This document shows, piece after piece, positions 2,350 to 63,136 of a DNA stretch of 64,000 nt. Within the stretch, counting starts at the first letter, position 1. Every line of letters begins with the position of its first letter. Source of the DNA: Omphalotus guepiniiformis. Lineage: Eukaryota > Basidiomycota > Agaricomycetes > Agaricales > Omphalotaceae. Below the pieces are notes generated by a model, which searched no databases, was not told where the DNA came from, and worked only from the letters and a program-made list of their open reading frames with translations. Made by a program: the position numbers and the translations under genes. Location of the stretch: contig JAQOOI010000079.1 in the NCBI GenBank assembly GCA_028554645.1, positions 1,860,001-1,924,000 on the forward strand. The letters are read 5' to 3'.

Positions 2350-4103
2350 CTTCGATCCGGATTTCGAGCCAGTCTTTCCTCCACGGCTGGTCTGAAAGGA
2401 AGGGAAGATCAGTTTACATTCAACACTGAAAACACGGATTACATGAATGTACCTTGCCCTTTGTCAATTTAGGGAGGTGGTGGCTCGACTGCGTGCGTAT
2501 GAAGGATAGGTTAGGTTGATATCGAAGAAGGAGAAACAGGAATGAAAATTGAAATAAGTCGTACCTTTGTGTGCTTAGGGGAGGAAGCTGCCTTTGTGTG
2601 ATGAGGTGAGGCAGCCTGGGTGGGTTTATGAGTCGAAGCCGCCGCCTTTATTGTGTGTTTGGGTTTGGGAGTCGCCGTGTGTTTGTGGGTTGCAGCCGCC
2701 TTCGTTGTGTGTTTGGGATTCGCACCCGCCTTAGTTGTGTGTTTGGGATTCGCACCCGCCTTCGTTGGCTTTGGAGTAGCATGCTTCGTAGAAGAGTGAG
2801 AGGCGGACTTATGAGCGCTTGATTTCTTAAATAACATTTTGTGTCAGCCTCACCGCTATGTCATACGATGCAAAAAAAAGACAAACCGGGCAGTCTGAAG
2901 CCTTGCTTTTCGGCGAAGACATAGACTTGGTTTTTGAGCGCCCGATGAGACCATCAAAATAGCTGCGAACTTGAGACCACCGACCCGAGTCGCGTCTGTA
3001 GTTGCAGTTGTAGTAATAAGTCCCAGCAGGTGTACCAGGTGCTACATAGGGAGGTTGTTGGGCGGCAGCAGTTTGCGCCCTGGATCAGAATTAGCGTGGA
3101 TCCCACAACAACCAATGAAATAAAATGAAATGTTTACTTTCGTATTACGCTGTCCAGTTGACGCTTATAACGAGAGTCGAATCCGGATGAGAAACCGTTT
3201 CCGGTGCCTACGATGCCATCCAGTTCGTCACTGATTGTCTTTGCAATTTTGAGTCCTGGATATGATCGATGCGCCTTGAGTTCTGTGAGATACTTGACAA
3301 GCCCATTCTAGTCATCGGGTAGCATTTCGTCTAAATCAGTGTTGTATTTTGATCAACGACTCGGAGTGACATACCAAAGCTTTGCTAGTTGTATCAGACA
3401 GCGTTGGTGTCCGGGGACCAAAGTATTTTCCTTTCACGTTGTTGACCATGGCAGGAATATAGACGATATTATCACCACCGTTGATGAACTTTTTGAATTG
3501 ACTGAAGTGAGGTGGGCTTGCTGCGAAAATTTGACAGGCGGCGCTGCCAGCTCTAAGTTCATTTGCTATGAATTGTAGCTCTACGATGCTGCGAGAAACT
3601 TAGCCTTGTAGGACATGATATCAGGGATGGGGCCAGAAACTTACTGGTCTGAAGGTTGAGTAACATGAACAAGTCAGAAATGAGATGCAGAGAAAATCGT
3701 GCTCGAACACATACCACATTGGGAGTCGGAAACTTTGTTCTGTAGATATATGTATCTCAGACTCCATTCCAAGTTTTAAAAAAATGAGGAAAGGTATTCG
3801 ACGTACAGGTAGCAACCTCAAGCTCCCGTCTCTAGGATCGTTCGGATGACGAAAGTCGTACGTCGTTCCTCGGCACGAGAGAGCGCTCTTCCGTAGACCG
3901 AAATCTCGACCGCAAGCACACGGTGCCGCTCCCCCATCATTACACCTTCTTGCGCGGGGAACGATGGATGCTTCCTTCCCAGCGACAGGTTCGTCGTTGG
4001 TGATAGACGCACCAACGTCCTGAACAGGAGCCGCGTCGACAAGAGACGCGAAGAGATGCGGCGTGGCTAGAACTGCACAGAGGACAGACGTTGAGATTAA
4101 CAT
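2350..4103 (-). CDS. Secreted Cys-rich protein with basic repeat tail, copy 1
   Basis: Function unknown. The start at 4103 is chosen because the paralogues begin at the equivalent Met and because it opens a signal peptide (about 25 residues, ending near VDAAP). A small Cys-rich part with CNDG and CACG follows. Exon 1 ends near 3810. The next exon ends SDSQC, then comes a 4-nt exon (3645-3648), then an exon starting HIVELQFIANEL (about 3380-3590). A domain with IAKTISDELDGIVGTGNGF lies about 3130-3310, then a Tyr-rich part with YYYNCNYRR (about 2890-3080). The tail is a Lys/His/Thr/Ala repeat built on PKHTTKAGAN-like units (about 2560-2840), followed by a Gly/Ser/Lys exon ending at 2350. The last exon is unresolved. 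It is divergent from the F-box-like gene at 5444, an arrangement repeated at 38.7-42.7 and 43.0-46.9 kb. Confidence 0.6.
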
Positions 4104-5443
4104 GATGGGTTTGGAATATTTCGTTGGATTAATGCGATAGATAGACGTGCAATGCAAACAGGGAAGAGAAGATTGAGGGATTAGATATGAGTGAGAAGGA
4201 GTTACCAGGAAAGCGCCAGCGCTCTGAGGGAATACAGCCATGGCTCAGCTGGATTTTATAGTGAATCCAAGAGTGGTGAACAAATTGGTTGAATTCCAGG
4301 GTGTAGGCCCCCGGTTGGAAAGGTCACTGCACGCACGATACGATGCGGCCAAGATGCGAAAATTCCAGTCTGCAGCCCCCCGTTGGAGAGGTCACCCGAA
4401 GGAAAAAGTGTCATGTTTACTTTCGCAATGTGATACGTTGATCGTAGGCTCACTAAACCAGTACGCAGGTGAGTTGCACGCCGAAAGTTTGGCCATAGGT
4501 ATATCGTTCATCCTGGAGAAAAACAGGAGATGTCAAGATGGCTTCATGAGATACCGTAAATCAGGCCTTACGTCGATGTTTGTGAAGAACACCCGCACTT
4601 CCTCTGATTAAGGAGTACTGCCACCTTTCCATACAAGGACTTGGGAACGCGTAAAGTAAATCCCTTGAATGATATTACAGAGATCTTTCAACCGTGGTTC
4701 AAAACTACGCCGCTTGAAATTACAGCAAGGGGGCCGCCAGAAGCACCAGACAATTCAACTATGGGTGTACGAGTTAGCGACCCACGAGTGATAAATCATA
4801 GAGCACGATCAAAGTTCCACATACATAGTAGATAGTTCATGCAAATGTCCTTCGGACAGAAAGCAGCAGGAGAGAGCTGCTATACACATTCGTGCCTTAG
4901 GAAAGGAGAATCTCGCTTACTGACCCTAGTATAGGCCGCAAACAAAGTCCTGGAGTTGAATTCACTCTACAGGCAGAATTACGGTTCAAATTGGTTGTCT
5001 CGAGTCCGACTTTCGTATCCGGGGCTTCGTTCTGGCGAGGTCATTATGGTCGTCCGAATAAGATCATGATGAGGCTGTTAAAAGACCAAGATAGATACTA
5101 TCACGTTCATAAGAGTATCTTCGAAAGGAAGTAAGCATTCGCTAGTTCTCGAAGAGATGATGGTGGTCGGCTTGTACGCGACCATGGCGTGACCATCAAC
5201 GACACCCGGCACGGTTATATGAAGAAGCCGGTAATGGCCTCCAACACCCAATGAACTTGTCGACCATCATCATCTTACGGAGCCCAGTCTTAGATCATAG
5301 ATGCAGTACACCTGTACATCGAGTGCTGATGTCGTTCAAAGTTATTCCGTCAAGATTGATACGGCACACACCGCAGCAAAGTTGGTTAAGAACTATCGGC
5401 TTGGATAGACGCGTTGAACAAACTTGACATTTCGCTGGACAAG
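4104..5443. promoter_or_regulatory. Shared upstream region of the divergent pair, copy 1
   Basis: This is 1.3 kb between two divergent genes with no convincing coding frame. Its left edge resembles the regions at about 40.38 and 44.62 kb upstream of the paralogous secreted genes, so the whole region was probably duplicated with the genes. No specific promoter element is identified. Confidence 0.4.
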
Positions 5444-6841
5444 ATGGGCGTATTCTCAACCTTTTGTGCTTTCTGGTGCGCTTGTTTAATGCTTGTATCT
5501 GCTTCTCATGGATTCTGATCCATATATGCTTCTAAAATAATAGTTCTGGGCCTCTGGACGATGCATACGAGTCATGGCATGAATACCTGAAAGGCGATAG
5601 TGCTGTTTACCCTCCTGGAGATGGCGAATGGTACAATCCTCCAGGGTATCCGGTCCCCACGAAAGAACAGTCCGAAATCATTCGTATCACTCCGCAGGAC
5701 GGAGAATACTGGAATGACTGGGTATGCATTGGACCTCTATGGCAGCCGAGTTATGTATCTCCGGCATGGTAAGAGATATTTCCCTCCTATATTCATGGTC
5801 AACTGACTAGCAATCGTTTATAGCACAGAAGATTCATATGGCGGTATCTTTATTGACGACGAGGATATTACAGACCAGATCGAACGAACATCTCGCTTTC
5901 ATCGCGGATGTCTTTCGCTTTTCTGTCGGTTCACAAATTCAAACCCTCAATCGCTTTATGAAAGCCTCTATGCTGAAGGCTCTGAACATCTCCGCCTCAA
6001 TTATGGAAATGGGTTATTGCATTGCATTGCATACTATCACATGGAAGGGCGCGCTGGGCAGTCCTTCAACTATGCCGTCGAGAGGCAGACACCGTTAGAG
6101 AACGGTGCGGGGTATTCGAGCTGGCTTGACCCAGAGACGATGGAGGAGTGCAACTGGCTACTTGCGCGACCTACTGTCTTTCCTGTGGTACCAGATACCC
6201 CAGGTCTCGTAGCATCCACTGGTGAAAACGTGGCGCTCAAAACAACTACCTCTTCTTCCCCTAGTTCGGCTGCATCTAAAGTTCTCAACATCCCAGAACT
6301 CCTTGACATTCTTCTATCTGCCCTTATCGAGCCTCTTCCGAAAACGACAATATCTGAGGAGAAGTCTAAATCGAGTACTCCTCCGTCCCTTGCTACCTCC
6401 ACTCGTGTATTGCTCGGCCTGCTGGCCGTTAACAAATCGATCCGAAACCATATTTTGGCTTCACGACAAGATTTATTCTTGTCTCTCGCATGGCAGCACG
6501 CCTGGATGCTCCCTTGTACTCCGCTGGACGGACAATCTTGGGCTCAAGTCAACCCTTCGATTCCTCTGTCGGAGTTACGTCCATCCTTTGGCTCTGACAC
6601 GCAATGTCACTACCAGCCTGCGAGTCGGGATTGGCGGGCTTATCTGGTGACGTTCTTGCGCAAGGATGTCCCGCACGTACGAAATCGGTGGAGAATGTAT
6701 AGGATGGCGATGCAGTTTGCTTTGGGAAAGAAAATGTCGGCGCAAAAGGTGTGGAAGTGGCACTGCGGAGATCTGTCTTATGTTCCTATGCCGTTTGAGG
6801 AAGGGAAGGAAGAAGGTTGGGAGGTTCCGGTTCCCTCTTAG
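5444..6841 (+). CDS. F-box-like protein, copy 1 (diverged)
   Basis: Three exons: 5444-5475, 5544-5768 and 5824-6841, giving 424 residues. The same exon pattern (a 32-nt first exon with both introns in phase 2) occurs in the copies at 41246, 45446 and 51782. The N-terminus MGVFSTFCAFCSGP matches a fungal family that usually starts MGC-x4-C-x2-C, but Cys3 is Val here. The middle contains PPGYPVPTKE, a YGGIFIDDED block and SRFHRGCLSLFCRF. An F-box-like helix pair starts IPELLDILLSAL (about residue 245), with LLAVNKSIRNHI after it. The C-terminal part (FLRKDVPHVRNRWRMYRMAM) is the most conserved. If the F-box is real it would recruit substrates to an SCF ubiquitin ligase; this is inference. It is the most diverged of the four intact copies. 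Confidence 0.75.
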
Positions 6842-38194: not shown

Positions 38195-38490
38195 GAGTAC
38201 TGAGTGTAGGGTATCTATTGTCAATTAAGGAAGATAGATGTAGATGAGCCTCGTCCTACTTAGAGTGTACAGCGGCGGAACTTCCTTCTGGTGGCGACTG
38301 CCATCGTGGTTTTCGCAGTGACAGTGGGCCTTACAGTCTTTCGTTTATCGAGTGCCCGAAGCTCGACAGCGGACGGAACAACGAGGAGACCACCCAAGGT
38401 GAGGGGTGATGGTGGTAATGGTGGTGGTGGTTTGCATAGCCTATCCCATATTACGCTGATGTCAAAACTTTTGACGAGAGAATGTGAGCT
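38195..38490. pseudogene. Collapsed remnant: tail of a secreted-family gene joined to F-box 3' flank
   Basis: 38204-about 38345 matches the 3' end of the secreted genes at 38716 and 42958 (TAGATGAGCCTCGTCCTACT, then the GTTTTCGCAGTGACAGT tail-repeat DNA). About 38437-38490 matches the DNA just behind the F-box-like gene stop at 42660 (TAGCCTATCCCATATTACG, GACGAGAGAATGTGAGCTTT). What lay between, a full secreted/F-box unit, is gone. Confidence 0.75.
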
Positions 38491-38715
38491 TTGTGTAAGC
38501 AAGTTCAGAAATCAGTCGCAAATGATAAGAAAAGAGAATATCACAACGTTTTATTATAGATACGAGCATTAGAACCATAAACCATTAATAGACCCCCCGA
38601 AGCCCCAATACATAAAGCTGCTATTCTGCGGTGCCTCTACATTTCAACAATACAAGAATCTTCGTCATGAACGGTGTCTATTGATTAACGAAAATAGATG
38701 TGGATGAGCCTCGTC

Positions 38716-40271
38716 CTACTTAGAGTGTACACCGGGGGAAGGCTTCGTAGTTTTCGCAGTGACAGTAGGCTTCACGGTAACCTTCGCAGTGGTAGCAACT
38801 ACCTTCGTGGTCTTCGCAGTGACAGTAGGCTTCACTTGAATCTTCGTACTGGTAGGAACTGCCTTTGTGGTCTTCGCAATAGCAGATGACTTCGTAACAG
38901 CCTTTGCAGGTGCACTAGACTTCAAGCTCGCCCGTGGAGGTTCCGAACTTGAACGAGAGCCGCCATTTGGCATCTGGGATGAAGCATGGCGATCCTTAAA
39001 TGAACGTAAGCATCGTTGCTGAATTGTGAATCGAACTGTAGGACGATCCACGCAATCTGCTCCTGACGGTGAAGTTGAAGCCTTGCTGTTAGAGCGCCCG
39101 AGCAGTGTGTTGAATACACCGCGAAGTCGAAGCCAATTCGTTTGGATGCCGGAACGTGTTGAGAAGTCGCTAGGGCATAGATTCCACCACTGGGGCTCTG
39201 TTGAACCAGGAGGTTGATATGGCTTCAGTCTAGGAGCTTGTGCTTTCGCTCTAATCATGTGTGGGTCAGATTTAGCAGGAGCAGCTAAAGATTTAAAAAA
39301 CTACTCATCCATGACACGTTTCATTCCATCCTGAAAGCGAGTCGCAAATCCGGGTGCGAAACCGTTTCCTTTACCTACGATTTCGTCTAGCTTGTCGCTG
39401 ATGGACTGTGCAATGCCAATTCCTGGATATTGTTGACCGTTATCGAGGAGTTGTTCAACGAAGGAAGCAGCCGCATCCTAGAGCAATGAGCAACGTGATC
39501 ATAATCAGCATGATACATACACTAATACTTGTTCATATTCATTTAAGCACATACCGCTTCTTTCCTGGTGGTCTCGCGTAAGGTGCTGCCTTGTAAAAGC
39601 GCTCCTTTGGCCGAATTGCATCCGCGAGGTATGTAAACAAGGTTTTCGCCACTGTTGATGTAGTCGAAGAATTGCTTATACTTGTCGGAGTCAGTGGTGA
39701 AAATTCCGCAAAGATCATCTCCAATTTCTCCTGCTATGAATTGAAGCTCTACAATGCTAAGGCGCAAGAAGAAATCAGGCAGTTAGAAAATGATATAAGC
39801 ATATCAGATACTTACTGGTCTGCAAACAAAGGTGGGTTGGATCAAGCAAATGGTCAGTCTGAAAAGCTAGACCCAGGATAAGTACTTGACACGAACCACA
39901 TTGGATGGCATAAGGTAAACCATAGTTACTCTGTGTGCTATGTTAATGCACTGCGGACTTTGAGGAAGAATCAACTTACTATCAATTAACTTCAACGTTC
40001 CATCGGTTGGATCATTTGGCGTCTGGTATGCAAATGTCTTCCCTGCACACTTGACTTTATTGAGCCGTAGACCAAGCTCTTTGTTACAGACACATGGCGG
40101 GTTATTATACGCCAAGGATGTACATTGAGCTTTTTGACCAGCGCGGGAGGTGAGGGAACTACCATTTGAAGGTGACGAAGGTGCAACAGAGTCTCGGAAA
40201 GGAGCGGCATTAACAAGAGGCATGTAAGGCGCAGCTAGAATAGTGCACAAGACAAAGGACATAAATAACAT
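38716..40271 (-). CDS. Secreted Cys-rich protein with Lys/Thr tail, copy 2 (possibly broken)
   Basis: Starts at 40271 (MLFMSFVLCTILAAPYMPLV, signal peptide). Then a Cys part (QCTSLAYNNPPCVCNKELG...YQTPNDPTDGTLKL), exon SNYGLPYAIQC, the 4-nt exon at 39816-39819, exon IVELQFIAGEIGDDLCGIF (about 39560-39760), SISDKLDEIVGKGNGFAPGF (about 39310-39480), and a long exon RAKAQAPRL...FSTRSGIQTNWLRLRG. The tail repeats VKPTVTAKTTK units and ends PSPGVHSK at 38716. In copy 3 exon 1 ends ATAGAT|GTACG. Here the sequence is ATTGATAGTAAG, which puts the only GT one base out of phase, and splicing there would give an immediate stop (TAA). It may be a recent pseudogene or use another site. Confidence 0.6.
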
Positions 40272-41245
40272 GGTGAATGAAATCAGCGAGATAAAGGGAC
40301 ACGAGTGAGAAGCAGTAATGAATGAGTGAAGAGTATTGAGGAGGGCGCCAGCGCTCTGAAGAACACATACCATTTCTCAATCGAATTTATAGAAAAACTG
40401 GGCCCATCGCAGTGATGAATCGGTCGCTGATACGAGAGCGTGATAATGGGCAGATTGAACCGTAGCTAGAATAGGTAAGTCTGTGGGCTCGCCTGCCGTC
40501 CCTACATCGAGACACAGATGTTGAGGAACTGATAGCATCAGCGCCGTCAAATGAGTTCCGCTGAACGGCCGACTCCTTGAAATCTGTGAGAAAAGACTCA
40601 CCTCAGGAGTCAAAACAAAGTCGTACCCATGTCATGACCGTGGTCAGTCGACCCAGCGACTCGAGTCCCAATTATGAGAAACCTCAGGTCAGTGATGTTA
40701 TTATGGTTGCGCTCCAGAGTTCAAACAAAGTAAGACTGCATTGAAGCGTTCAAAGTAAGAGAAAGCACTATTAGACATGTCAAGTATGGAGATTCCAAGC
40801 CCAGAGAATAGGGCTCGCCGGGAGCTTGCCCACTTCAAACTCATTGCGATGATGGTAGTTCAATTGAACGAGTCGTTTATTACATAAGCGCTAATGTACT
40901 TCCTAGTCATCATGATCACCGCCTCACCGCCTGCGCGATGGTAGTGAAACATTCCAAACGGTAGATACGAGATATCTCTTGGATATCTCGGGCTTCTCGT
41001 TGTGTTTGTGCCATATTACATAGGTACGCGAGCTTGGACCTGCTTTGGACACACTTTCAGCTGATGATTGATCCGAGTTCAACGTTGCAGACGTGTTCAG
41101 CTGGAGCGGCTAGCAAATTTGTTGACGCCAGTCTGTGGCAGTACTCATAAAACTATGGCAATGTCCGAGTGTGGTGACTGGATATAAATCAGGACGTTTC
41201 CGGCTTTTGTTTTGCAAAATTCCTCGGCCTGGTGATTGATTCAAG
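40272..41245. promoter_or_regulatory. Shared upstream region of the divergent pair, copy 2
   Basis: This region is closely similar to 44503-45445, and its right part to 51480-51780. Shared blocks include TTGGATATCTCGGGCTTCTC and ACACTTTCAGCTGATGATTG, the latter about 190 bp before the F-box start. Such conservation suggests either recent duplication or shared control; the sequence alone cannot separate these. Confidence 0.5.
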
Positions 41246-42660
41246 ATGGGCTGTTTCTCAACCTATTGTGCATTCTGGTATGTGTCTATTTAGTGTCTGG
41301 CATTCAATCTTTTAGACTTTCACGAGTTGATTCCTAGTTCTGGACCGTTCGACGACGCATACGACGCATGGCACCGTTTCGTGTTAGATGATCGGGACCG
41401 TTCCTATCCTCCTAAGGACGGACAGTGGTGTGGCAATCCTCCAGGATATCCTGTACCTACGAAGGAGCTGAGTGAGCTCATTCGCATTACCCCTGAAGAT
41501 GGGATATTCTGGCTGGACTGGGTTTGCATTGCACCCTTGTGGCCAAGTTATACTTCTCCGGCTTGGTGAGTCCTCCTTGTACCCCCCTTATCTGGTTTTG
41601 GTTTGCTGAAAATGCATGCGTTAGCACTACTGATGCATACGGTGGTATATTTATCAACGATGTGGACATGCGGGATGAGATTGGTCGCACATGGCGGTTC
41701 CACCGTGCATGTCTTTCCTTCTTCTGTCGATTCACCAATTCCACCCCTCAGTCACTCTACGAAAGCTTCAACTCTGCTCAATATTGTCGATTTACTGAAG
41801 ATCCACCTGGGATGGTGTATTGTGTTGAATACTTCGACATGGAACACCGCGCGGAGCAGGACTTCGGGTATGCCACCCGGAAGTGTATGACCCTGGAAGA
41901 ACACCAGAAGACCGGAGACTCGTGGTGGTACGATCCTGACACGATGGAGGACTGCAATTGGTTACTCGCACGACCTACAGTCTTCCCCGTCGTTCCAACC
42001 ACTCCGAATCTCGCGTACCCTACAAGCGATATCGTGACTCCTGAAGCGCATACAGCGTCATCCACGCACTCCAGAACGGCTGCACAACAAGTTTTCTGTA
42101 TACCAGAACTTCTTGATATGATTCTGACTGCTCTTGTTCAACCTCTCCCGCGGAGAACAAACGGCAGGGAGAAATCTGCATTCGGTGCTCCACCCTCTCT
42201 TGCTGCCAACACCCGTGCCGTGTTCTGTTTGCTGTCCATTTCCAAGCATGTTCACAACTACATCATCACCTCACGACAAGATCTATTCTTATCCATCGCA
42301 TGGCAGCATTCCTGGATGCTCCCTTGCACCCCAATGGACGGACGTTCATGGACTGAAAGCAACCCTTCCATTCCTCTATCAGACCTGCGCCCCATCTTTG
42401 GCTCCAACAACACATCGTTCCGCTACCAGCCACCCAGTCGTGATTGGCGGGCTTATCTTCTGACGTTCCTTCGCAAGGACACACCACACGTAAGGAATCG
42501 ATGGCGGATGTATCGGATGGCAATGCAGTTTGCGATAGGGAAGGGTTGTCGTGGGCAGAAGGATTGGTCTTGGAATTGTGGGGATCAGTCTCATGTTCCT
42601 TTGCCGTTTCAGGAAGGGATGGAGGAGGATTGGGAGCTCCCGCCGGATGATGAAGAATGA
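41246..42660 (+). CDS. F-box-like protein, copy 2
   Basis: Exons 41246-41277, 41338-41565 and 41625-42660 give 431 residues. It starts MGCFSTYCAFCSGPF, the Cys pattern C-x4-C-x2-C of a widespread fungal family. It continues with NPPGYPVPTKELSELIRITP, YGGIFINDVDM, TWRFHRACLSFFCRF, DPDTMEDCNWLLARPTVFP, the F-box-like IPELLDMILTALVQPLP (about residue 247), LLSISKHVHNYI, SRQDLFLSIAWQHSWMLP and FLRKDTPHVRNRWRMYRMAM, ending with an acidic tail PPDDEE. It is probably intracellular (no signal peptide). An adaptor role in ubiquitin ligases is inferred from the weak F-box only. It is highly similar to copies 3 and 4. Confidence 0.8.
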
Positions 42661-42957
42661 GAGGACATGTTTGTATAGCCTATCCCATATTACGTTGATG
42701 TCAACACTTTAGACGAGAGAATGTGAGCTTTATATCTGACATGTGTAATCAAATTCAGAAATCGGTCGCAAATGATAAGAAAAGAGCTCGTAGTTGATTA
42801 TCACAACGATTTATCATAAATTACAAGCATTAGAACCCCCGAAGCCCCAGTACACAAACCTGCTATTCTGCAGTGCCTCTACATTTCAACAATACAAGAA
42901 TCTTCGTCATGAACGGTATCTATTGATTAATGAAGATAAATGTAGATGAGCCTCGTC

Positions 42958-44502
42958 CTACTTAGAGTGTACACCAGGGGAAGGCTTCGTAGTTTTCGCA
43001 GTGACAGTAGGCTTCACCGTAACCTTTGCAGTGGTAGCAACTACCTTCGTGGTCTTCGCAGTGACAGTGGGCTTCACTTGAATCTTCGTACTGGTAGGAA
43101 CTGCCTTTGTAGTCTTCGCAATGGCAGATGACTTCGTAACAGCCTTTGCAGGGGCACTAGACTTCAAGCTCGCCCGTGGAGGTTCCGAACTCGAGCGAGA
43201 GCCGCCATTTGGCATCTGGGATGAAACTTGGTGATCCTTAAATGAACGTAAGCATCGTTGCTAAACTATGAATTGAACTGTAGGGACGAACCACGCAATC
43301 CGCTCCTGACGGTGAAGTTGAAGCCTTGCTGTTAGAGCGCCCGAGGAGCGTCTTGAATACACCGCGAAGTCGAAGCCAACTCGTTTGGATGCCGGAACGC
43401 GTCGAAAAGTCGCTAGAGCATGTATAGACCCACTGAAGCTGTGTTGAGCCCTGAACTTGATATGGGTCTAGTCTAGGAGCTTGTGCTTTCGCTCTAAACA
43501 TGTGTGAGTTCAGTGGGAGCAGCTAAAGAGTCAAACAACATACTCATTTTTGACACGTTTCATTAAATCCTGAAAGCGAGTCGCGAAACCGGGTGCGAAA
43601 CCGTTTCCTTTACCTACAATTTCATCTAGTTTGTCGCTAATAGACTGTGCGATGCCAATTCCTGGATGTTGTTGACCATTATTGAGGAGTTGTTCAACGA
43701 AGGAGGCAACCGCATTCTAAAGCAATGAGTAATGAGATCATAATCAGCATAATGATACATCCACTGGTACTTATTGAAGCACATACCGCTGCTTTGCTTG
43801 TGGTCCTTTGTAGGGTGCTGCCTCGTAAAAGCGCTCCTTTGGCCGAATTGCATTCGCTGGGCATGTCAACAAGGTTTTCGCCACTGTTGATGTAGTCGAA
43901 GAATTGCTTATACTTGTCGGGGTCAGCAGTAAAAATTCCGCAGAGGTCATCTCCAATTTCTCTTGCTATGAACTGAAGCTCTACAATGCTAAGGCGCAAG
44001 AAGAAATCAAGCAGTGCCTTAAAAAATGATGAAGCATATCAGATACTTACTGATCTGCAAACAATGGTAGGTTAGGTACAGCGAATGGTCACTCTGATAA
44101 GCTAGACCCATAATAAGTACTTGACACGTACCACATTGGATTTTGTATGGTATACCAAGATTCGTCTGTGTGCTATATTAATTCACTGTGGACTCTAAGG
44201 AAGAATCAACGTACATCTATCAACTTCAACGTTCCATCGGTTGGATCATTTGGCGTTTGGTATGCAAATGTCGTCCCTGGACACTCGATGTCATTGAGCC
44301 GTAGACCAAGCTCTTTGTTGCAGACACATGGCGGGGTATTATACGCCAAGGATGTACATTGAGCTTTTTGACGGGAGGTGAGGGAACTACCATTTGAAGG
44401 CAACAGAGGTGCAACAGAGTCTCGGAAAGGAGCGGCATTAACAAGAGGCATGTAAGGCGGCGCAGCTAGAATAGTGCACAAAACAACGGACACAAATAAC
44501 AT
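42958..44502 (-). CDS. Secreted Cys-rich protein with Lys/Thr tail, copy 3
   Basis: The cleanest member. Signal peptide MLFVSVVLCTILAAPPYMPL; Cys part with CTSLAYNTPPCVCNKELG and ECPGTTFAYQTPNDPTDGTL; exon 1 ends at ATAGAT|GTACG. Next comes exon TNLGIPYKIQC, the 4-nt exon ATCA (44051-44054), exon IVELQFIAREIGDDLCGIF (about 43795-43995), SFVEQLLNNGQQHPGIGIAQ (about 43545-43718), and FSTRSGIQTSWLRLRGVFK. The tail (42958-43215) has VKPTVTAKTTK repeats and ends PSPGVHSK. Joined through the micro-exon the text reads C-D-H-I-V-E-L. The secreted product would have a folded Cys-bearing part and a strongly basic, Thr-rich tail, as seen in cell-wall- or polyanion-binding proteins. Function unknown. Confidence 0.7.
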
Positions 44503-45445
44503 GGTGAATGAAGTCAGTTAGATAAAGGGAGACAGGTGTGGCAAGTAAGAAGCAATAATGAATGAGTGAAGAATATTGAGGAGGGCGCCAGCGCTCTGAA
44601 AGACACATACCATTTCTCAACTGAATTTACAGTAAATCCAGCGCAGTGAGGAATCGGTCGCTGATACGAGAGCGTGATAATGGGCAGATTGAACCGTAGC
44701 TAGAATAGGCATATCTGTGGGTTCATAAGTCTGTGGGCTCGCCTGCCGTTTCTACATCGACACACAGATGTTGAGGAACCGGTAGCATCAGCGCCGTCAA
44801 ATGAGTTCACACTGAACGGCTGACTCCCTAAAATCTGGGAGAAAAGACTCATCTCAGGAGTCAGAATGAAGTCGTACCCATGTCATCGCCGTTCAGTCGA
44901 CCCAGCGACTCGAGACGAGCGACGAGTCCGTTTGGTCCCAGTTATGAGAAACCTCAGCACAGTAAATGTTACTATGGTTGCGGTGCAGAGTATAAACAAG
45001 GTAAGACTGCATTGAAACGTTCAAAGTAAGGAAAAGCTTTCGATTAGATATGTCAAGCAAGCATGGAAATTTCCAAGCCCAGTGAACAGAGCCCACCGTT
45101 GTTCTCCTGATGATGGTTACGTTGAACAGTGGTTACATAAGCGCTACTGTATTCCTGGCCATCACCATGTGGGCGAAAGTGGCGAGATATCGTCTTGGAT
45201 ATCTCGGGCTTCTCGTTGTGTTTGTGTGCATAGGTACGTTAGCTTGGACCTGCTGAGGACACACTTTCAGCTGATGATTGATCCGAGTTCAACGTTGCAA
45301 CCGTGTTCAGCTGAAGCGGCTAGCAAACTTGTTGACGCCAGTCTGTGGCAATACTCATAAAACTATGGCATCCGAGACTGCTCATAAATAAGATCGTTCC
45401 CGGCTTGACTTTTGCACAATTCCTGGGCCTGGTGATTGATTGAAG
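44503..45445. promoter_or_regulatory. Shared upstream region of the divergent pair, copy 3
   Basis: Near-duplicate of 40272-41245 with small indels. No coding frame of note. Confidence 0.5.
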
Positions 45446-46864
45446 ATGGGCTGTTTTTCAACCTATTGTGCATTCTGGTATGTGTCTCTTTAATGTCTGG
45501 CTTTCAATCTTTTCAAGACTTTTATGATTCGATTTCTAGTTCTGGACCGTTCGAAGACGCATACGACGCATGGCACCGTTTCGTGACAGGAGTGGACCGT
45601 TCTTATCCTCCTAAGGACGGACAGTGGCGTTGTAATCCTCCAGGATATCCTGTACCTACGAAGGAGCTGAGTGAGCTCATTCGCATTGCCCCTGAAGATG
45701 GGATATTCTGGCTGGACTGGGTATGCATTGCACCCTTGTGGCCAAGTTATACTTCTCCGGCTTGGTGAATACTCCTTGTACCCCTCTTATCTGGTCTTTT
45801 TTGCTGAATTTGCATTGATTAGCACTACTGATTCATACGGTGGTATATTTATCAACGATGTGGACATGGGGGAAGAGATTGGTCGCACATGGCGCTTCCA
45901 CCGTGCATGTCTTTCATTTTTCTGTCGCTTCACCAATTCCACCCCTCAGGCACTCTACGAAAGCCTCAACTCTGCTCAATATCGTCGATTTACTGAAGAT
46001 TCATCTGGAATGCTGTATTGTGTTGAATACTTCAACATGGAGGATCGCGCTGAGCAAGACTTTAGGTATGCCATACGGAAAGAAACCAGCCTGGAGGTAT
46101 TTGAAGCAACAGGTTGCTCGCGGTGGTACGATCCTGACACGATGGAGGACTGCAACTGGTTACTCGCACGACCTACAGTCTTCCCTGTCGTTCCAATCAC
46201 TCCGAATCTCGCGTACCCTACGAAAAATATCGTGACTCCTGAAACACACACTGCATTCACGCACCCTAAAACGGCTGCACAAGAAGTTTTCTGTATACAA
46301 GAACTTTTTAATATGATTCTGTCTGCTCTTGTTCAACCTCTCCCGCGGATAACAATCGGCAGGGAGAAAACTGCATTCCGTGCTCCACCCTCTCTTGCTG
46401 CCAACACCCGTGCCGTGTTCCGTTTGCTGTCCATTTCCAAGCATGTTCACAAGTACATCATCACCTCACGACAAGACTTATTTCTATCCCTCGCATGGCA
46501 GCACTCCTGGATGCTCCCCTGCACCCCAATGGACGGACGTTCATGGACTGAAATCAACCCTTCCATCCCTCTATCAGACCTGTGCCCCATCTTTGGCTCC
46601 AACAACACGTCGTTCCGCTACCAGCCACCCAGTCGTGATTGGCGGGCTTATCTTCTGACGTTCCTACGCAAGGACACTCCGCATGTAAGGAATCGGTGGC
46701 GGATGTATCGGATGGCGATGCAATTCGCGGTAGGGAAGCGTTGTATTGGACGGAAAGAATTTGAGGATTGGTCTTGGTCTTGTGGGGATCAGTCTCATGT
46801 TCCTATGCCGTTTCAGGAAGGAATGGAGGAGGACTGGGAGCTTCCGCCGGATGATGAGGAATGA
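45446..46864 (+). CDS. F-box-like protein, copy 3
   Basis: Exons 45446-45477, 45540-45764 and 45823-46864 give 432 residues. Same layout as the copy at 41246: MGCFSTYCAFC start, PPGYPVPTKELSELIRI, YGGIFINDVDMGEEIGRTW, F-box-like IQELFNMILSALVQPLP (the Pro of IPEL is Gln here), LLSISKHVHKYI, and the C-terminal RKDTPHVRNRWRMYRMAMQF. It differs by GRKEFEDWSWSCG near the end (extra residues against copy 2). Stop and 3' flank match copy 2 for about 60 bp. Confidence 0.8.
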
Positions 46865-48318
46865 GAGGTCAAGCTTCTATATCTATTCTAATTTAGACTG
46901 ATGTCAACGCTTTGGACGAGAATGCGAGCTTAATGAGGCTTAATGACTCAAAAGTGTAATGAAAGTCACAGAATCCGGTCGCAAACGATAAGAACTGAGC
47001 TCTTTATTTGAAACTCACGACGATTTACATGGTATTAATTACGTGAAGCCATAAACTGCTATTCTGACCAGAGGCTCAAGCTTCAAGACCTTGAGGTATG
47101 TGATGATAGCTCTCCATTTGAAAGATAAGTCTTGATGTTCTTAAGTATTGATTGAAGCCCAGTCAAGGCGTACATACACTTGAATAGTAATTCGTGGTGA
47201 TAGTGTTTACGTAATGATTCAAAATCTTGTCTGCAACTACTTCGCTCAGCGGGCGAGGCAACGTGTAATTTCGAAAATCTCGGGCTTTGCGTGCATGGAG
47301 TGCTTGTGAGGAGCTGCATTACAGACGGTGGACACACCTTGGGACCTACTGATTAACATGCTTTAACCGAAGCTGCATTTCAAGATTTCAAAGCTTGTCG
47401 TCTCAGTCTTTTGCTAAAACACAAGCAGTCACCAGCGGGATCTTCAATATCAACGTTACTGTTTTCAGAAAAGATTCTATTGCCCGGTTTGCCAGTTACT
47501 CGAAGGTGGGCTGTTTTTCAACATAATGATATTGCGCATTCTGGTATGTTTCCGTAATCATTTTACCCCATCATTATTCTCAATGATCTTAGTTCTGGAC
47601 CTCTGCACGATGCTCGTATAACTTGCCAGTCGGCAGACTCGGATTCACGGATGACTATGGCCAGTTTCTCATCTCGGAATTACAAGACTGAATTCCTGCA
47701 AGCTCCCAAACTCGAAAATTTGAACCTCTCGGTCTCGGAATCGGGCTTACTTCCTCTCCGATGGGTCTCATGTTCAGGATCGCTAAAAGTAATTCGGAAG
47801 CGGGTACGGCTCGGTGTCTAGTCTACCATGGCGTTATGCAAATATATGCAATATCTTCATCCTTGGATCAGGCTCCGCATATAATAGGAAGAGGAAGCAC
47901 AACGTCAAAGCCTAAAGTCTGCTTTATTTGACCTTCAATATCACTTTCTGTGCTGACCCACCGTCATCCTACCACGTAGCGAACACGGTAATACAACCCT
48001 AGCAGCGCCGCGTGTCAAACGCATCGCCTTGAGGGTAATTTCGCCTTAAGACTTCCCCTCCGAGGACTCCAACTGAATGTGGTAGTCAACCTTCCGTTTC
48101 AACTATGGTCATTCGCAAATCGTGAAACCCCGCAATACTCACAACGGATAGCCTTGGCCGTCAAATATTTAGATCCTTTTGCAATGAAGCCCTCATAAAA
48201 CCGGACCACTAGTAGCGACATGCAGTACCCTAACACCGCTGCATCGAACGCCCCTCATCTTTCAACTTTCGGGATCCCCCTTGAACCTTTTTCTTTCAAA
48301 GCCCAAAATTTTGAAAAG
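46865..48318. other. Spacer with a decayed F-box gene start
   Basis: No intact gene. Contains the relic at 47506-47620 (listed separately). The rest holds only short frames. Confidence 0.5.
47506..47620 (+). pseudogene. Relic of the 5' end of an F-box-like gene
   Basis: GGGCTGTTTTTCAACATAAT, then GCGCATTCTGGTATGT and, after about 50 bp, TTAGTTCTGGACCTCTGCAC, reproduces exon 1, donor, acceptor and exon 2 start of the intact copies. The start ATG has become GTG, an insertion carries a stop, and similarity ends soon after exon 2 begins. Confidence 0.75.
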
Positions 48319-48807
48319 ATGCATATGGCCACATCCACTCGTTTCGTCTCCTTGCTCTTCACTGCTCTTATAACTGTCTTCACAATACCCAGCGCGTTCG
48401 CTGGTAGTGGTGAGCATCTCACTAGCCACATAGCTATTTAAACTGATGCAAACTCGGGTGTCTTAGCCACGTTCTACCGACCCGCAGGTCGCACCGGAGC
48501 ATGTGGCGCCACTCTTCAAAACTCTGATTATATCGCTGCTTTCGGCTACGAGGACTACGGAGATGGATCCAATTGCTGGAAACACATAACTGTATCTCGT
48601 TCGTCATTTTCGATATTCTCGATTCACCCAGGTTTTCTGATGGACATGTTTGTGTTTACAGACTATGGAAATACTGTCGACGTTATGATTGCGGATAAAT
48701 GCGAGTCTTGCCAGCCTGGAGACCTTGATTTATCCGAGGCAGCGTTCAAAAAGCTTGCGGATCTCAGCGAGGGGGATATTCAGGTGGATTGGTCCTATAG
48801 TAGTTGA
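48319..48807 (+). CDS. Small secreted double-psi beta-barrel (expansin/RlpA-like) protein
   Basis: Exons 48319-48409, 48467-48598 and 48662-48807 give 122 residues. An N-terminal signal peptide of about 28 residues (FVSLLFTALITVFTIPSAFA) is followed directly by the barrel: ATFYRPAGRTGACGATLQ, DYIAAFGYED, NCWKHITVSHYGNTVDVMIA, DKCESCQPGDLDLSEAAFKK and DIQVDWSY. The GACG, the DxC-x2-C block and the LDLS motif are the family marks. Related fungal proteins are small apoplastic or wall-loosening proteins, some of them effectors or protease inhibitors. The length fits a single domain. The start may be the second Met at 48325. Confidence 0.85.
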
Positions 48808-49087
48808 TGTTCTAGCTTGCGGGTATTGACCGAGCACCTGCTGGGAGGAAGGGAGGAAATCTTTTTCCCACTGTGAATGTTGTTCTTTGGGTTTTTGTAT
48901 CGCTGTGCAGTACTATATCTTGTCACTCTTTTATATTTATCACTGTCTTTACTGATTATATGCTGTACCTAGTGTATTGAACTCATATCTTTTTTCATAA
49001 TCATACTGTACTGCACAAACTGAGCTATCAAAGCGGGTACATTCAAAGCGAGATTTATTGATGTAGTCTGTAGGATATATACCGTTT

Positions 49088-50020
49088 TCAAGATGTGCAA
49101 AAACTGCTAAAATGGATACCCTGCTTGTTGCAATACGCAGCAAGATCGTTCTCCCCATACTCCTTGTCCTTCACGAACAGCACGTCCGGGTGCTTCGCAG
49201 CAGATATGTCTATGAAAAGATGTGGGTGTCTTCCGTCAGGACTCTGGTTGAGAGGATGAAGCTACGAACCTGAAACAAGAGGACAGTCGGACGGGTTTCC
49301 AGCTGGGAGGGTAAGATAGCTTGAGATTTGTCATGTCCATAGCCGCCGTAGGAGGGAGGGAGACGCGTCGTTGGAGTACTCCAGTAGCAGCAAAGTACCT
49401 CGTAGGATGTCTATATTTGATGCCCCAAGTTCCATGAGGATGAAGATCGACCTCGTTTGATATAATCTCGATCTCGTTAGCAGATTCTTCACCAACCAGG
49501 TTAGTTAGAACAGCACGGATAGTGGATGGTGTAATTTTGTTCGTTGAAGTGCGTTGAGCTTGATACCAATTGTAACCGACCTCATGATGACTGGAATATC
49601 GTTGGCTTTGCACCAGGCAAAAAAAATCTTTGAATCCAGAGTCTTAGGTTGATATCTGTAGTAGTAAACGAGAAGACCGCAGTACGCACTCTCTCGCAAG
49701 ACTATCCTCTTGCACTCCTCGAACGAATGTCACTTTGCAAGCATCTCACGAAATGCATATCTACGCGTTCACAAATCAGGGTTTCTTGAGTCGAAAGAAA
49801 CATACCAGATCACATACCTAGATGTAATCTTGTCATTCAAGACATCTCTCTTCTGAAATCCTCTTCCCCCTCCCAAAACCAATCATTTCTTCAACAAACG
49901 ACGCACAAACGAGTATTTCCCAATCGACTCGTTGATCCTCAGTTCACATTGGTAGACGAAAATACCACGATCATTAGAGTCGTACGTAGTTATCGTCTGG
50001 GTACCGTGCCATCCCTGCGT
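49088..50020 (-). pseudogene. Decayed HAD phosphatase, PYP1 (YNL010W)-like
   Basis: On the minus strand a chain of fragments follows the order of the fungal PYP1-type phosphatases: TTYDSNDRG near 49970, SFREML near 49760, LDSKIFFAWCKANDIPVI (about 49590-49640), TIRAVLTNLVGEESANEI and DLHPHGTWGIKYRHP (about 49400-49530), YGHDKSQAIL (about 49330-49360), and DISAAKHPDVLFVKDKEYGE with YCNKQGIHF ending at 49088. The nucleophile motif (DFDGT) and the Gly-Asp-Gly motif before DISAA cannot be read. Frames change several times outside plausible introns. The C-terminal part is well kept, so decay is recent, or the gene uses unusual splicing. Confidence 0.6.
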
Positions 50021-51781
50021 CCAATATCGTGAATTACTCGGCGTGAGATTGAGGAGACACGAAATGACATACCAACTTGAATCAGATGAAACTACGAACT
50101 TCCTGCCCTCGTGAATAGGTGGTCAAGGAAGGGGTACTGTTAGGTGCAACCTCTGTCATGTTGTAGCCTCAGGTGATGGTGATCGTTTGCGTCCCTTAGC
50201 CGATCTTGAATTTGCGTCTCTCACTACGTCTTTTTTGAACTCTTCTTTCGCCTATTCAATTCTCGCTCTTTATCCACGCCTTCGTCGAGGTTATTGGCGA
50301 TTTTTGCAATACAGACATGGCTCTCGCGTGCTCGCTGGACCGTCTAGACCAATTACACACGATGACCAACACAACATGCAAAATCTCTCCGAGGTTGTTC
50401 GAAGGGCAAGTTGTCGCAAGCGGCAAATACCAAAAGATTCATCGACTGTCACGGGAGGACACTCATAGCGAGTTGAGAGAGTTGGAGTATTGGTGAGTAC
50501 TTGAGTGCTTTTTTTCCAAGAAATAAACGCGATGACTTACTCGATAATTTGCTGGGTCCTGGCTAGGTCGATCCTTGCAATCGTGCGGATGATATTTCTT
50601 TTGGGAACACTCTTGACCGACCATTGCATTTGTATGAGGTACATTGGCCAAACGCTCAGTTCACCTATTTTTATGTTTTCTATGCTCATTTTACTCATTT
50701 ATTCAAGGTGCCTCATAGCTACGTTGATCTGACACTCGAGCACGATCCGAGGCCTCGCCACCCTCATCAGCGTCTTCTGCCTTGTCTTCACTGGACATTC
50801 GTCCTACTCTGGGAGCAGTGGCGGGAGTGAGTCGAGCAAGTCACACAAGCTCAAGAACGTGTTCACGGGAGTTACGAAAATCAAACGTATTCACAATGAA
50901 TGCCCTGCACATTCGGAAGAATAGCCGTTCTGCTTCCAGAACGCGAACTTGCGCAGGACGGTTTTCAGTGTCGCTGAGAATCGGCAGGCGATGCAGTTTG
51001 GTCTAAAGGTGAGTACTGCAATTTTATATCTCTTGTATTTTTCGTATTCTTCTTCGAGTATTATCTTCACTCGTCGCGTGTCATTTTCATTTATCTCACT
51101 CTGTATGTGTCCGTGTTGCTCATATGCATTTTCAGGACGTGATCAGGACTCCTTCTGCTACGGCCTCTCACGCCGTCTCTACGTCTCCCGGGTGGGATAT
51201 CGTTTGACCTTATGCGCTGGGATGGGCAACCGGTGAGGGGTTTGTCTGTGTGGGCGGAAACGTGCCAGTGTCAGCTGCATGGAGGCAGGTGTATGCCTCG
51301 TGGTCACATGGTTTCAAAGGGAGCTGCAGTAGCACCTAGTAGCGCTCATTCATTCATTATCTCATGTCTCTGTTCACTACGGCAGTGGCAGATGGTATCA
51401 CTTTCACATATCATGATACAGGTCTGCCTACTGTTCGGCGGCGAGCAACTTACACGACGCTCATGGAGCAGTGAAACATTTCATGAAACGGCAGATACGA
51501 GATGATATCTTATGGATATTTCGGGCTTCTCGTTGTGTTTGTGGGCCATATTACATAGGTACGTGAGCTTGGACCTACTTTGGACACACTTTCAGCTAAT
51601 GATTGATCCGACTCGAGGTTCAACGTTGCAACCGTGTTCAGCTGAAGCGGCTAGCAAATGTGATGACACCAGTCTGTGGCTATACTCATAAGACTATGGC
51701 AAATTCCGAGAGTGTAGTCATAAATAACATCGTTTCCGGCTTTTCTTTTCCAAAATCCCTCCGCCTGGTGATTGATTCAAG
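50021..51781. other. Unassigned stretch left of F-box copy 4
   Basis: A possible exon starts at 50319 (MALACSLDRLDQLHTMTNTT, up to ELRELEYW, with a GT donor at about 50491), but I could not extend it convincingly or recognise it. From about 51480 the sequence matches the F-box upstream regions at 40.9 and 45.2 kb. Confidence 0.35.
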
Positions 51782-53180
51782 ATGGGCTGTTTTTCAACCT
51801 ATTGTGCATTCTGGTATGTGTCTCTTTAATGTCTGGCGTTCAATTTTGTAGACTTCATGAAATAATTTCTAGTTCCGGACCGTTTGAGGACGCATACGAG
51901 GAATGGCACTACTTCGTGACAGATGGCAATCCTTATCCTCCTAAGGACGGACAGTGGCGTGGCAATCCTCCAGGATATCCTGTACCTACGAAGGAGCTGA
52001 GTGAGCTCATTCGCATTACCCCTGAAGATGGAATATTCTGGCTGGACTGGGTATGCATTGCACCCTTGTGGCCGAGTTATACTTCTCCGGCTTGGTGAAA
52101 ATTCCTTGTACTCTCATCTGGTCTTGTTTTGCTGAAAATGCATTCGTTAGCACTACTGATGCATACGGTGGTATATTCATCAACGATGTGGACATGTGGG
52201 AAGAGATTGGTCGGACATGGCGGTTCCACCGCGCATGTCTTTCTTTCTTCTGTCGCTTCACCAATTCCACCCCTCATTCACTCTACGAAAGTTTCAACTC
52301 TGCTCAGTATTGTCGATTTACTGAAGATCCACCTGGGATGGTGTATTGTGTTGAATACTTCGACATGGAACACCGCGCCAAGCAGGATTTCAGGTATGCC
52401 ATACAGAAAGAAACGAACCTGGAGGTTTTCGAAGCAACCGGTTATTCGCGGTGGTACGATCTAGACACGATGGAGGATTGCAATTGGTTACTCGCACGAC
52501 CTATAGTCTTCCCTGTCGTTCCAACCACTCCGAATCTCGCGTACCCTACGAACGATATCGTGACTCCTGAAACACAGACTGCATTCACGCACCCTAAAAC
52601 GGCTGCACAAGAAGTTTTCTGTATACCAGAACTTTTTGATATGATCGTAACTGCTCTTGTTCAACCTCTAGCGCGGAGAACAATCGGCAGGGAGAAAACC
52701 GCATACGGTGCTCCGCCCTCTCTTGTTGTCAACACCCGTGCCGTGTTCCGTTTGCTGTCCATATCCAAGCATGTTCACAAGTACATCATCACCTCGCGAC
52801 AAGACTTATTCCTATCCCTCGCATGGCAGCACTCCTGGATGCTCCCTTGCATTCCAATGGACGGACGTTCATGGACTGCAATCAACCCTTCCATCCCTCT
52901 ATCTGACCTGCGCCCTATCTTTGGCTCTAACACATCGTTCCGCTACCAGCCACCCAGTCGTGATTGGCGGGTTTATCTTTTGACGTTCCTTCGCAAGGAC
53001 ACACCACACGTAAGGAATCGATGGCGGATGTATCGGATGGCGATGCAGTTTGCGATAGGGAAGGGTTGTCGTGGGCAGAAAGATTGGTCTTGGTCTTGTG
53101 GGGATCAGTCTCATGTTCCTATGCCGATTCAGGAAGGAATGGAGGAGGATTGGGAGCTCCCGCCGGATGATGAGGAATGA
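51782..53180 (+). CDS. F-box-like protein, copy 4 (solo)
   Basis: Exons 51782-51813, 51873-52094 and 52151-53180 give 427 residues, with MGCFSTYCAFCSGPFEDAY, PPGYPVPTKELSELIRITP, YGGIFINDVDMWEEIGRTW, F-box-like IPELFDMIVTALVQPLA, LLSISKHVHKYI and the conserved RNRWRMYRMAM end. Unlike copies 1-3, no secreted-family gene stands upstream; the expected place holds unrelated DNA and a decayed phosphatase. The similarity to the 3' flank of the other copies ends about 20 bp after the stop. Confidence 0.8.
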
Positions 53181-57155: not shown

Positions 57156-57544
57156 ATCCACCAGCTTCTCTACTGTAAATTGTTTTATTCAGTGATTACT
57201 GTTCTGTTTGTTTGTAAGATGTCAATCACCAAGTATCTCTTGATTATTGTCCTGGTCCCTCAATTGCCTGATGCTAATACATATTCAAAACTTCACACAA
57301 TATTCAGGTTATTTCACATTCTAAGTGAGTCTGAGTCTAACTGAAGTGACAGAAAACTGCCAGATCCCCATTGTGACCCTTAAGCTTTTTTCTCATTCAG
57401 TAGCAAGTATGTAGACAAGTTCACCCCATCCATTTTGAGGCATACAACATATTGAACTACCAAGTGCTCATGCTAACCTCTCCAGTAGGCCAATAAGCAT
57501 GCTAATCTCATTTTAGGGAGCCTAGGATGAACCTAATTATCATG
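57156..57544. other. 3' flank of the NACHT gene, CpG-poor
   Basis: No gene. AT-rich, with almost no CpG until the F-box relic begins. Confidence 0.5.
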
Positions 57545-57845
57545 GACTGAAATCAACCAGAAATCAACCCTTCCATTCCTCTACCAGACTACCTTCAGCT
57601 CTAACATTTCGCTACCAGGTACCCAGTCGCGGTTGGCGGGGTCTATCTTCTGAGGTTCCTACACAAGGACATCCTGCACGTGCAATAGGGAAGTACTAGT
57701 AGTGTCCTGTGCGGGAAGACTTTGAGGAGTGGGAGTGGCTTTGCAGAGATCTGTCTCAGGAAGGGATAGAGAAGGAGGATTGGGAGCTTCTGCCGGATGA
57801 TGAGGAATGAGAAGAGTCATTTGCACAGCCAGCCTATTCCGTATT
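57545..57845 (+). pseudogene. Relic of the 3' end of an F-box-like gene
   Basis: ATGGACTGAAATCAACC, then CAACCCTTCCATTCCTCTA, TACCCAGTCGCGGTTGGCGG and finally GGATTGGGAGCTTCTGCCGG with GATGATGAGGAATGAGA match exon 3 and the stop of the intact copies. Deletions and frame breaks separate the blocks. Similarity continues into the 3' flank (AGCCTATTCCGTATTACAC). Confidence 0.8.
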
Positions 57846-57953
57846 ACACTTGATGTCAACGATTCGAGAATGCTTTGTGTTGAAACGGTCACAGTGGACT
57901 ACCGGGGACAGGTTAGCTACAAGACGGTAAGTACATACTCACCGATAGCTAAT

Positions 57954-62617: not shown

Positions 62618-63136
62618 GTCGTAGGTCTCTGGTCTGGGTTCTGGTGATTCTGATGTGACCCGGATGGGGTTTGATGAGGAACCGAGTGTTCGGTCCTCTG
62701 GTTCTGGTGATACCTCGGTTGATGAGATGTAGATGACTGTGGCGGAGGGCCTGATCTCCGTGATCGGAATCTCGATCTCCGTCTCGTCTGAGTCAGAGGT
62801 CTCGAGCTCGGAGCTTCTCCAATGAGTGTATTGTTCTCGGAGAGCGATGGCTCGTTCCTCGTCGTCTGGGGACTCTCTGGATATATCTGGTGGTACATAG
62901 GCAGGTCGCTCTCCGTGGTCGGAGGGCTGGTATTCTGGACTGGGATTGAGCCATCCGACTGCTGAGTCGGTAGATGGGCTGGTTCCTGCTGGGTAGAAGA
63001 CGCCATAATAGTGTCGACTTGCGACTGGGTATGCGATGGAGGATTCTCCGTCGCTATCCCATGGTTCGGCATCTGCCCAGGGATCAGGGTTGCGGTCATT
63101 CCCGCTTCCGCCCTGTGTATCATTATGCGGTTCAGA

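Follow-up and report, generated by a model that had tools for sequence, protein, structure and literature searches.

Why should two unrelated genes stay side by side through repeated rounds of duplication? The question is raised by a 64-kb stretch of Omphalotus guepiniiformis DNA (the window, from whose first nucleotide all positions are counted), in which a minus-strand gene for a secreted-type protein (S) stands head to head with a plus-strand partner gene (F), the two together making up a unit. Three such units were originally predicted in the window, and gene models with GT-AG introns could be built for both partners, bearing out this layout. The S/F pairing itself is well supported. What it is for can be approached through the history of the array, the distribution of the two families in other fungi and the features of the two proteins.

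Organization and turnover of the array

The S gene of unit 1 (2272..4103, minus strand) has 10 exons and an open splice model of about 417 amino acids, with the terminal 12-nt exon and the stop codon placed by eye. A divergent intergenic region of 1340 bp (4104..5443) separates it from an open F gene of three exons and 424 amino acids (5444..6841, plus strand). In unit 3, an open S gene of seven exons and 393 amino acids (42958..44502, minus strand) and an open three-exon F gene of 432 amino acids (45446..46864, plus strand) flank a divergent intergenic region of 943 bp (44503..45445). Unit 2 likewise has an open F gene with three exons and 431 amino acids (41246..42660, plus strand), paired with an S gene (38716..40271, minus strand) that is probably disrupted: its first donor site is off by one base and the GT of its exon-6 donor is gone, while exons 1 and 4-7 are free of frame-breaking indels. 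Given this donor-site damage, a full-length protein is probably not to be expected from it, which amends the original prediction for unit 2.

The idea that the pair was multiplied as a unit is upheld by the 86% identity of units 2 and 3, taken whole, across 4.2 kb. Along its entire length their intergenic DNA shows 77% identity, in agreement with the predicted conservation of upstream DNA between the two later units, and a recent segmental duplication does explain these two units. Further to the right lies a solo F gene (51782..53180, plus strand; three exons, 427 amino acids, open), which has about 300 bp of upstream DNA in common with units 2 and 3 and no adjoining S match at E 1e-4. The predicted degenerate elements are also present. 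A collapsed unit (38210..38481) retains remnants of an S 3' end and of the F-side 3' flank of a unit, recovered by BLAST at 38210-38280 and 38430-38481. There are two F relics on the plus strand, a 3' relic at about 57560..57860 found by BLAST and a 5' relic at about 47505..47619 recognized by eye only, with no BLAST recovery at 1e-8.

The array in the window is real, but it reaches further left than the original prediction had it. Whole-genome searches recovered two more units beyond the left edge, pair A, which is open, and pair B, which is dead, placing all five units within 87 kb of a single contig. Pair B has been broken up by a 9.2-kb LTR element, which is young (its LTRs are identical at 275 of 276 positions and it is flanked by a GTAGA target duplication); the two halves of its intergenic region match that of unit 1 at 82% and 77% identity. 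All five S copies found in the genome stand, or formerly stood, head to head with F, and F occurs alone once. Every open S (3/3) lies beside an open F, and two of the five open F genes lack an open S.

Linkage in other species and divergence of the two genes

Relatives of F were found in 12 named species and those of S in 6, both families being found in four named species. The two lie on the same contig in two of these four and on different contigs in the other two, so that the outcome set against the pairing, namely that the families are usually unlinked in related species, was not cleanly obtained. In Marasmius sp. AFHP31 the S gene PQX77_007929 and the F gene PQX77_007931 share a 52,520-bp contig, and in Mycena galericulata the relatives of S and F share a contig of 1,774,573 bp; for this same-contig linkage the distance is known in one species only, as two locus tags, and orientation is not visible. 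Because S and F are linked in these two other mushroom species too, the partnership looks old. We accordingly reject, for the pair as such, the possibility that the pairing is merely a product of recent segmental duplication.

When the two clades of the array are compared, full-length dS is 1.03-1.35 for F and 1.31-1.75 for S. Judged by omega values of 0.21-0.35 for F and 0.25-0.48 for the S core, both genes are under purifying selection, and the solo F (omega 0.23) is the most constrained of the three F genes compared. The linkage in Marasmius and Mycena, together with the similar dS of S and F between the clades, suggests that the pair has outlived many chances to part. The comparison of pair A with unit 1 gives a dS of 0.22 for F versus 0.63 for S; these histories differ, and S and F are therefore able to separate.

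The S protein and its DHNNK signature

The S protein is Cys-rich, with a secretion-type N-terminus and a Lys-rich tail; in unit 1 it has a hydrophobic start, eight shared cysteines and a core of the form DHIVEL...N...N..NNxK. Basic processing-like sites are also apparent by eye. The D-H of the motif QCDHIVELQ is encoded in unit 1 by a 4-nt microexon (ACCA; 3645..3648, minus strand), supported by the splice model and by alignment, together with its flanking exons. In the splice model of unit 3, a 4-nt microexon (ATCA; 44051..44054, minus strand) lies at the same D-H junction.

The residues DH, N, N, N and K occur in this order and are invariant in all 10 aligned S cores, an alignment from which two of the nine database relatives, mis-modelled at the microexon, had been removed beforehand: P0022, a gene model without the D-H, and P0025, another M. 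roreri model, this one bearing an insertion. When the pattern is simplified to DH, N, N..K, it occurs in 11 of 12 S proteins, as against one of 494 six-frame ORFs drawn from part of the DNA only and one of 9880 shuffles. According to Zhang et al. 2012 (PMC3482391), DH-N-N-N-K is the signature of the Tox-DHNNK toxins, which have the HNH/EndoVII fold and are reported in basidiomycetes. The best of five structure models of the S relative P0001 has a mean pLDDT of 60.8, and its residues 51-230 have block values of 73-94, with one block at 62. It places D94-H95 in a strand or bridge, followed by helices, a strand at 136-138 and a helix at 141-151 bearing N144 and K147, an order that fits bba.

S thus shares with the Tox-DHNNK clade the ordered signature residues, the predicted strand-strand-helix order, a secretion-type N-terminus and an adjacent second gene, the last being constant at all five S copies here and on the same contig in two of the four other species. 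It differs in being a stand-alone protein with a Cys-rich head and a Lys-rich tail, in having a partner without a match to a known immunity family and in showing no detectable sequence similarity to the clade in the libraries searched. The P0001 model has no significant PDB or viral match, with nothing credible from Foldseek or VIA-align, and no HNH-type family was matched by S at E up to 10 in Pfam, NCBIfam and PADLOC, from which a dedicated DHNNK profile is perhaps absent. PHROGs gave only weak single-member matches to unknown families. None of these libraries put a name to the S family, which may belong to one that they do not list. The full-length S profile recovered nine PDB sequences, foremost through Lys-rich tails (best E 0.0041). 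Pattern scans gave 12 matches in prokaryote genomes and 13 in viral contigs, none confirmed as S relatives; tblastn at E up to 10 returned seven plasmid and two phage records. The one plasmid match that lies over the motif region (E = 9) proved on inspection to be due to chance. In this genome, PF13391 has six matches, none of them at the array, and PF07510, another HNH-type family, has none. Taken together, the residue pattern and predicted core lead us to regard S, with moderate confidence, as a nuclease-type protein.

The F protein

F had been labeled F-box-like, a designation that does not survive profile searches: no F-box match was found in the two of four window F proteins that were scanned nor in 16 of 17 relatives, the remaining one, P0015, having been left out of the Pfam scan on account of a long acidic insert. 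None of the 111 matches to PF12937 in the genome (150 of 229 candidates scored) falls at the array. Using hhalign and an F-box profile built from eight segments of this genome, we obtained a weak register over 16 columns (P = 0.046, probability 1.2; the control S gave P = 0.76). F resembles F-box proteins of the PF12937 type in a weak helix pattern in its middle part, but differs from them in matching no curated profile and in having an N-terminal CxxC-GP motif and a C-terminal DWR...RWRM region of unknown family. The same two window proteins and 16 of 17 relatives have no Pfam match to the SUKH, SuFu or Imm33 immunity families, and nothing in Pfam names the F family. A weak structure model of F (pLDDT 56.5) has no Foldseek match, and the F profile has one weak match among PDB sequences (E 0.43). 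In databases, the S and F families alike appear only as "hypothetical protein".

Functional interpretation and alternatives

We tentatively favor an explanation in which S is a secreted nuclease-type antagonist and F a linked intracellular self-protection gene. The array would then be made up of copied versions of an old two-gene cassette with divergent transcription. S would be an HNH-type nuclease-like protein with the DHNNK signature, secreted, rich in disulfides and probably dependent on a metal, and its Lys-rich tail would attach to nucleic acid or cell surfaces. F would be a cytosolic partner of unknown fold, most likely shielding the producing mycelium from S, by self-protection or neutralization, or else controlling S. 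The secretion of S and the cytosolic location of F are suggested by their N-termini. We infer the nuclease activity of S and its use as a weapon, and the proposed role of F as an immunity or safeguard protein for S we can only infer; what bears on neutralization of S by F is the asymmetric survival of the open copies. A more specific version, in which mushroom-forming fungi carry a toxin-immunity cassette that is nuclear and has introns—with a secreted HNH-type S whose catalytic D-H is encoded across a 4-nt microexon, an F representing a new intracellular immunity class and an array located beside an NLR gene—is less likely.

A doubtful but quite possible alternative is that S is nuclease-like and F an unrelated neighbor, held in place by a shared divergent control region or by segmental duplication without any partnership of the proteins. 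The duplication of 4-kb units as wholes, the survival of a solo F, the wider species range of F and the differing pair A/unit 1 histories of the two genes all agree with this, but the linkage in the Marasmius and Mycena species and the similar S and F dS between the clades argue against it, as do start codons 0.94-1.34 kb apart, a long distance for a single shared core promoter. The originally proposed role, with S acting outside the cell as a signal or effector and F inside it as an F-box responder in the same pathway, is improbable and not favored. It would account for the pairing and co-duplication and finds an echo in the weak hhalign register; however, the lasting pairing stands while this role is weakened, because F lacks an F-box profile match and S has the residue set of HNH-type nucleases and toxins. 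Least probable is a selfish toxin-antidote system of the spore-killer type, with S poisoning meiotic products or partner nuclei that lack F. Turnover in copy number that has left some copies dead or solo, the physical linkage of a toxin-like to a non-toxin gene and the fact that no open S was found in this genome apart from an open F are what such a system would share with the array, against which stand the secretion-type N-terminus and by-eye processing-like sites of S and the presence of F where S was not found.

If the favored antagonist and self-protection reading is true, a conserved nuclear pair would open a genetic route to studying how mycelia recognize or fight one another, and two families of hypothetical proteins would gain names. 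Should F have no immunity function, the pair would still be a test case for the long-term togetherness of unrelated fungal genes. Bacteria and yeast cytoplasmic plasmids offer well-known examples of weapons that carry their own self-protection, and we found no description of the S/F pair in the open-licence literature searched. A close fungal comparison is with yeast killer toxins such as gamma-toxin/zymocin and PaT (PMC3482391), which cut tRNA and are encoded by linear plasmids of the cytoplasm, and for which immunity genes are described (PMC10427833). The likeness lies in a secreted fungal protein, a nucleic acid target (presumed for S) and a linked protection gene (hypothetical for F), whereas S and F are nuclear, spliced and members of other families.

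A single array of divergent S/F pairs

Whole-genome searches of the 42.5-Mb, 80-contig genome carrying the window place all clear matches to S, the gene for the secreted-type Cys-bearing protein with a Lys-rich tail, and to its partner F within 1.831-1.918 Mb of contig JAQOOI010000079.1 (C78), whose bases 1,860,001-1,924,000 form the window; elsewhere there are only marginal matches, for S on contig C36 (E = 0.11) and for F on C63 (E = 0.016). Two further pairs, A and B, lie to the left of the window, with F on the minus and S on the plus strand. Both genes of pair A are open (F from 1,832,544 on C78, its stop read by eye; S from 1,833,838). Those of pair B are apparently dead, F (about 1,837,164-1,835,797) through frame-shifting deletions and S (from 1,847,786) through such deletions and a stop; the deletions were read by eye against the sister copies, and the stop was also returned by the genome search. 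Between them lies a 9,184-bp LTR element (C78:1837387-1846570) with 276-nt LTRs identical at 275 of 276 positions and a GTAGA target duplication. Since its two flanks align with the intergenic region of unit 1 over almost its whole length (82% and 77% identical), pair B stood head to head before the insertion. Hence, all five S copies found in the genome are, or formerly were, head to head with F, which confirms and enlarges the array of multiplied pairs originally predicted. The solo F copy (window 51782-53180) and F relics within the window (one read by eye) are likewise upheld.

Splice models were obtained by aligning the copies against each other, with GT-AG verified for every intron. S has seven (unit 3), nine (pair A) or ten (unit 1) exons, and F has three in each open copy. 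The S proteins (393-417 aa) begin with a hydrophobic stretch (best 12-residue Kyte-Doolittle mean 2.2-2.9, a measure of hydropathy only) and share eight Cys in all three proteins of this genome and in five of the seven relatives listed. The tail contains 17-32% Lys+Arg and at most 2% acidic residues in eight of the nine proteins computed, the exception being the relative P0023, whose gene model has no tail. The F proteins (424-432 aa) start with MGxFxx[YF]CxFCSGP and are less hydrophobic at the N-terminus than S (1.1-1.6 in the three computed); as they lack its secretion-type start, F is taken to be cytosolic.

The DH-N-N-N-K core of S and its microexon

In an alignment of seven of the nine database relatives with the three proteins from this genome, P0022 and P0025 having been dropped beforehand, the S core shows no variation in QCDH, VELQFIA, N, N, N and KG and also has invariant Cys residues; with all nine relatives included, the D-H columns are not invariant, the P0022 model having different residues there. 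In this genome the D-H codons, in the most conserved motif of S, span a 4-nt microexon (ACCA or ATCA) with an intron on each side (window 3645-3648 and 44051-44054; C78:1834278-1834281). The P0022 and P0025 gene models have insertions exactly at this site, and so the split is probably conserved and at times mis-annotated.

The AlphaFold model of the S relative P0001, computed from an alignment of eight of the nine relatives, has a mean pLDDT of 60.8 in the best of five models and 41.5 in the worst; residues 51-230 reach block means of 73-94, with one block at 62. D94-H95 form part of a strand or bridge; helices come next, then a strand (136-138) and a helix (141-151) holding N144 and K147. We take this order of elements, from D94-H95 to K147, to be that of the bba-metal motif. 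A simpler pattern (DH, N, N..K) is present in 11 of 12 S proteins but seldom in the comparison sets: 1 of 494 six-frame ORFs, taken from 20 sequences in which S places were not masked, and 1 of 9880 shuffles. None of the domain libraries or fold searches used recognized S as HNH, and we therefore stop short of assigning it to that family; nevertheless, it most likely works like one of its members. Measured against Tox-DHNNK, the HNH/EndoVII-fold toxin clade of Zhang et al. (2012; PMC3482391), S has the DH-N-N-N-K signature but differs in having no library or fold match.

F is not recognized as an F-box protein by curated profiles

The label F-box-like, which the original prediction gave to F, is dropped: curated profiles yield no F-box match, and no Pfam family exceeds its curated cut-off in the F proteins scanned. 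When F (21 proteins) was aligned profile to profile with an F-box profile derived from eight segments of this genome, the result was P = 0.046 across 16 columns, the register being plausible, versus P = 0.76 for S as the control. The AlphaFold model of the F relative P0004 (alignment of 16 of 17 relatives) is weak (pLDDT 56.5), and a fold search with it found no match.

Relatives, linkage and co-inheritance

Every named relative is a mushroom-group fungus, from Mycena, Marasmius, Moniliophthora or Punctularia. Protein searches recovered nine S-related clusters (three in the first search; eight, six of them new, in a second that scored only the 7995 candidates with most words in common) and, with a single-sequence query, 17 F-related clusters. 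S occurs in six named species (Mycena galericulata, Mycena amicta, Mycena albidolilacea, Marasmius fiardii, Marasmius sp. AFHP31 and Moniliophthora roreri), F in 12, and both in four. A shared contig is seen in two of these four: Marasmius sp. AFHP31 has S and F (PQX77_007929 and PQX77_007931) on one 52,520-bp contig and Mycena galericulata on one of 1,774,573 bp, a placement that is read from equal contig sizes and speaks to the shared contig, not to distance or orientation. In the other two the contigs differ (3,039,403 versus 830,878 in Mycena amicta; 23,018 versus 324,224 in Marasmius fiardii). The protein searches did not detect F in the S-bearing Moniliophthora roreri and Mycena albidolilacea, or S in eight F-bearing species, all of these being soft absences.

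By dS, the F copies fall into two groups, pair A with unit 1 and units 2 and 3 with the solo copy, and the three S models compared concur (A with unit 1, unit 3 apart). Between-group dS is high for both genes (F, 1.03-1.35; full-length S, 1.31-1.75), so that they were probably duplicated as a pair long ago. Within the A/unit 1 group the two genes have unlike histories (F dS 0.22 versus S dS 0.63), a difference that suggests F underwent gene conversion or exchange and that speaks against strict co-inheritance. For F, omega is 0.21-0.35; for S it is 0.25-0.48 in the core and 0.32-0.49 over the full length. When the branches are split three ways, constraint is strongest on the solo F (0.23), followed by F of unit 3 (0.30) and F of unit 2 (0.40), whose own S is apparently disrupted.

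Possible roles of the pair

Four new facts stand out as the most useful: the head-to-head rule for all five S copies of this genome, the shared contig in two further species, the microexon-split signature and the asymmetry in how S and F survive. Every open S (3/3) stands beside an open F, and two of five open F copies lack an open S, a pattern expected if S were harmful without F; the numbers are small and the support, which concerns a guarding role of F, is indirect. One may propose that S is secreted, trimmed at a basic site and held by disulfides, that its target would be nucleic acid in a competing or partner cell, and that F would guard the S-making cell. The earlier idea of an extracellular factor with an intracellular responder is one of several readings, not the favored one, and is shorn of the F-box label. 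That S and F are mere neighbors is almost as likely as the guard reading where function is concerned, but less likely to explain why the pair has persisted in different species. Conservation of F without an adjacent S allows for a separate role, or for protection by F against S from elsewhere.

Neighboring features

The part of the array that separates unit 3 from the solo F holds a small, apparently secreted DPBB_1 (double-psi beta-barrel) gene (window 48322-48807, plus strand, start read by eye). Adjoining unit 1 is a minus-strand open frame (7718-8230) that matches SHLD2_OB1, the first OB fold of shieldin subunit 2 (E = 3.6e-7). An NLR-like gene (54893-57152, plus strand) with an NPHP3_N piece, a winged helix and ankyrin repeats directly adjoins the array, and an F relic lies just behind it at 57560. 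The repeats of this NLR-like gene keep a 99-nt register (56241-57233), and those in the middle are 81-86% alike; high similarity among repeats is a typical trait of fungal NLRs involved in allorecognition. To the right of the array is a minus-strand retroelement open frame (58280-63160) with RVT_2 and integrase, presumably of copia type. AT-rich DNA with 11-nt tandem arrays occupies 22164-25028 and 63140-64000, and the 861-nt stretch 24168-25028 has an inverted, 100% identical copy 38 kb away. A 300-nt duplicate (26361-26660 and 28861-29160; 96% identity) lies inside two similar open frames.
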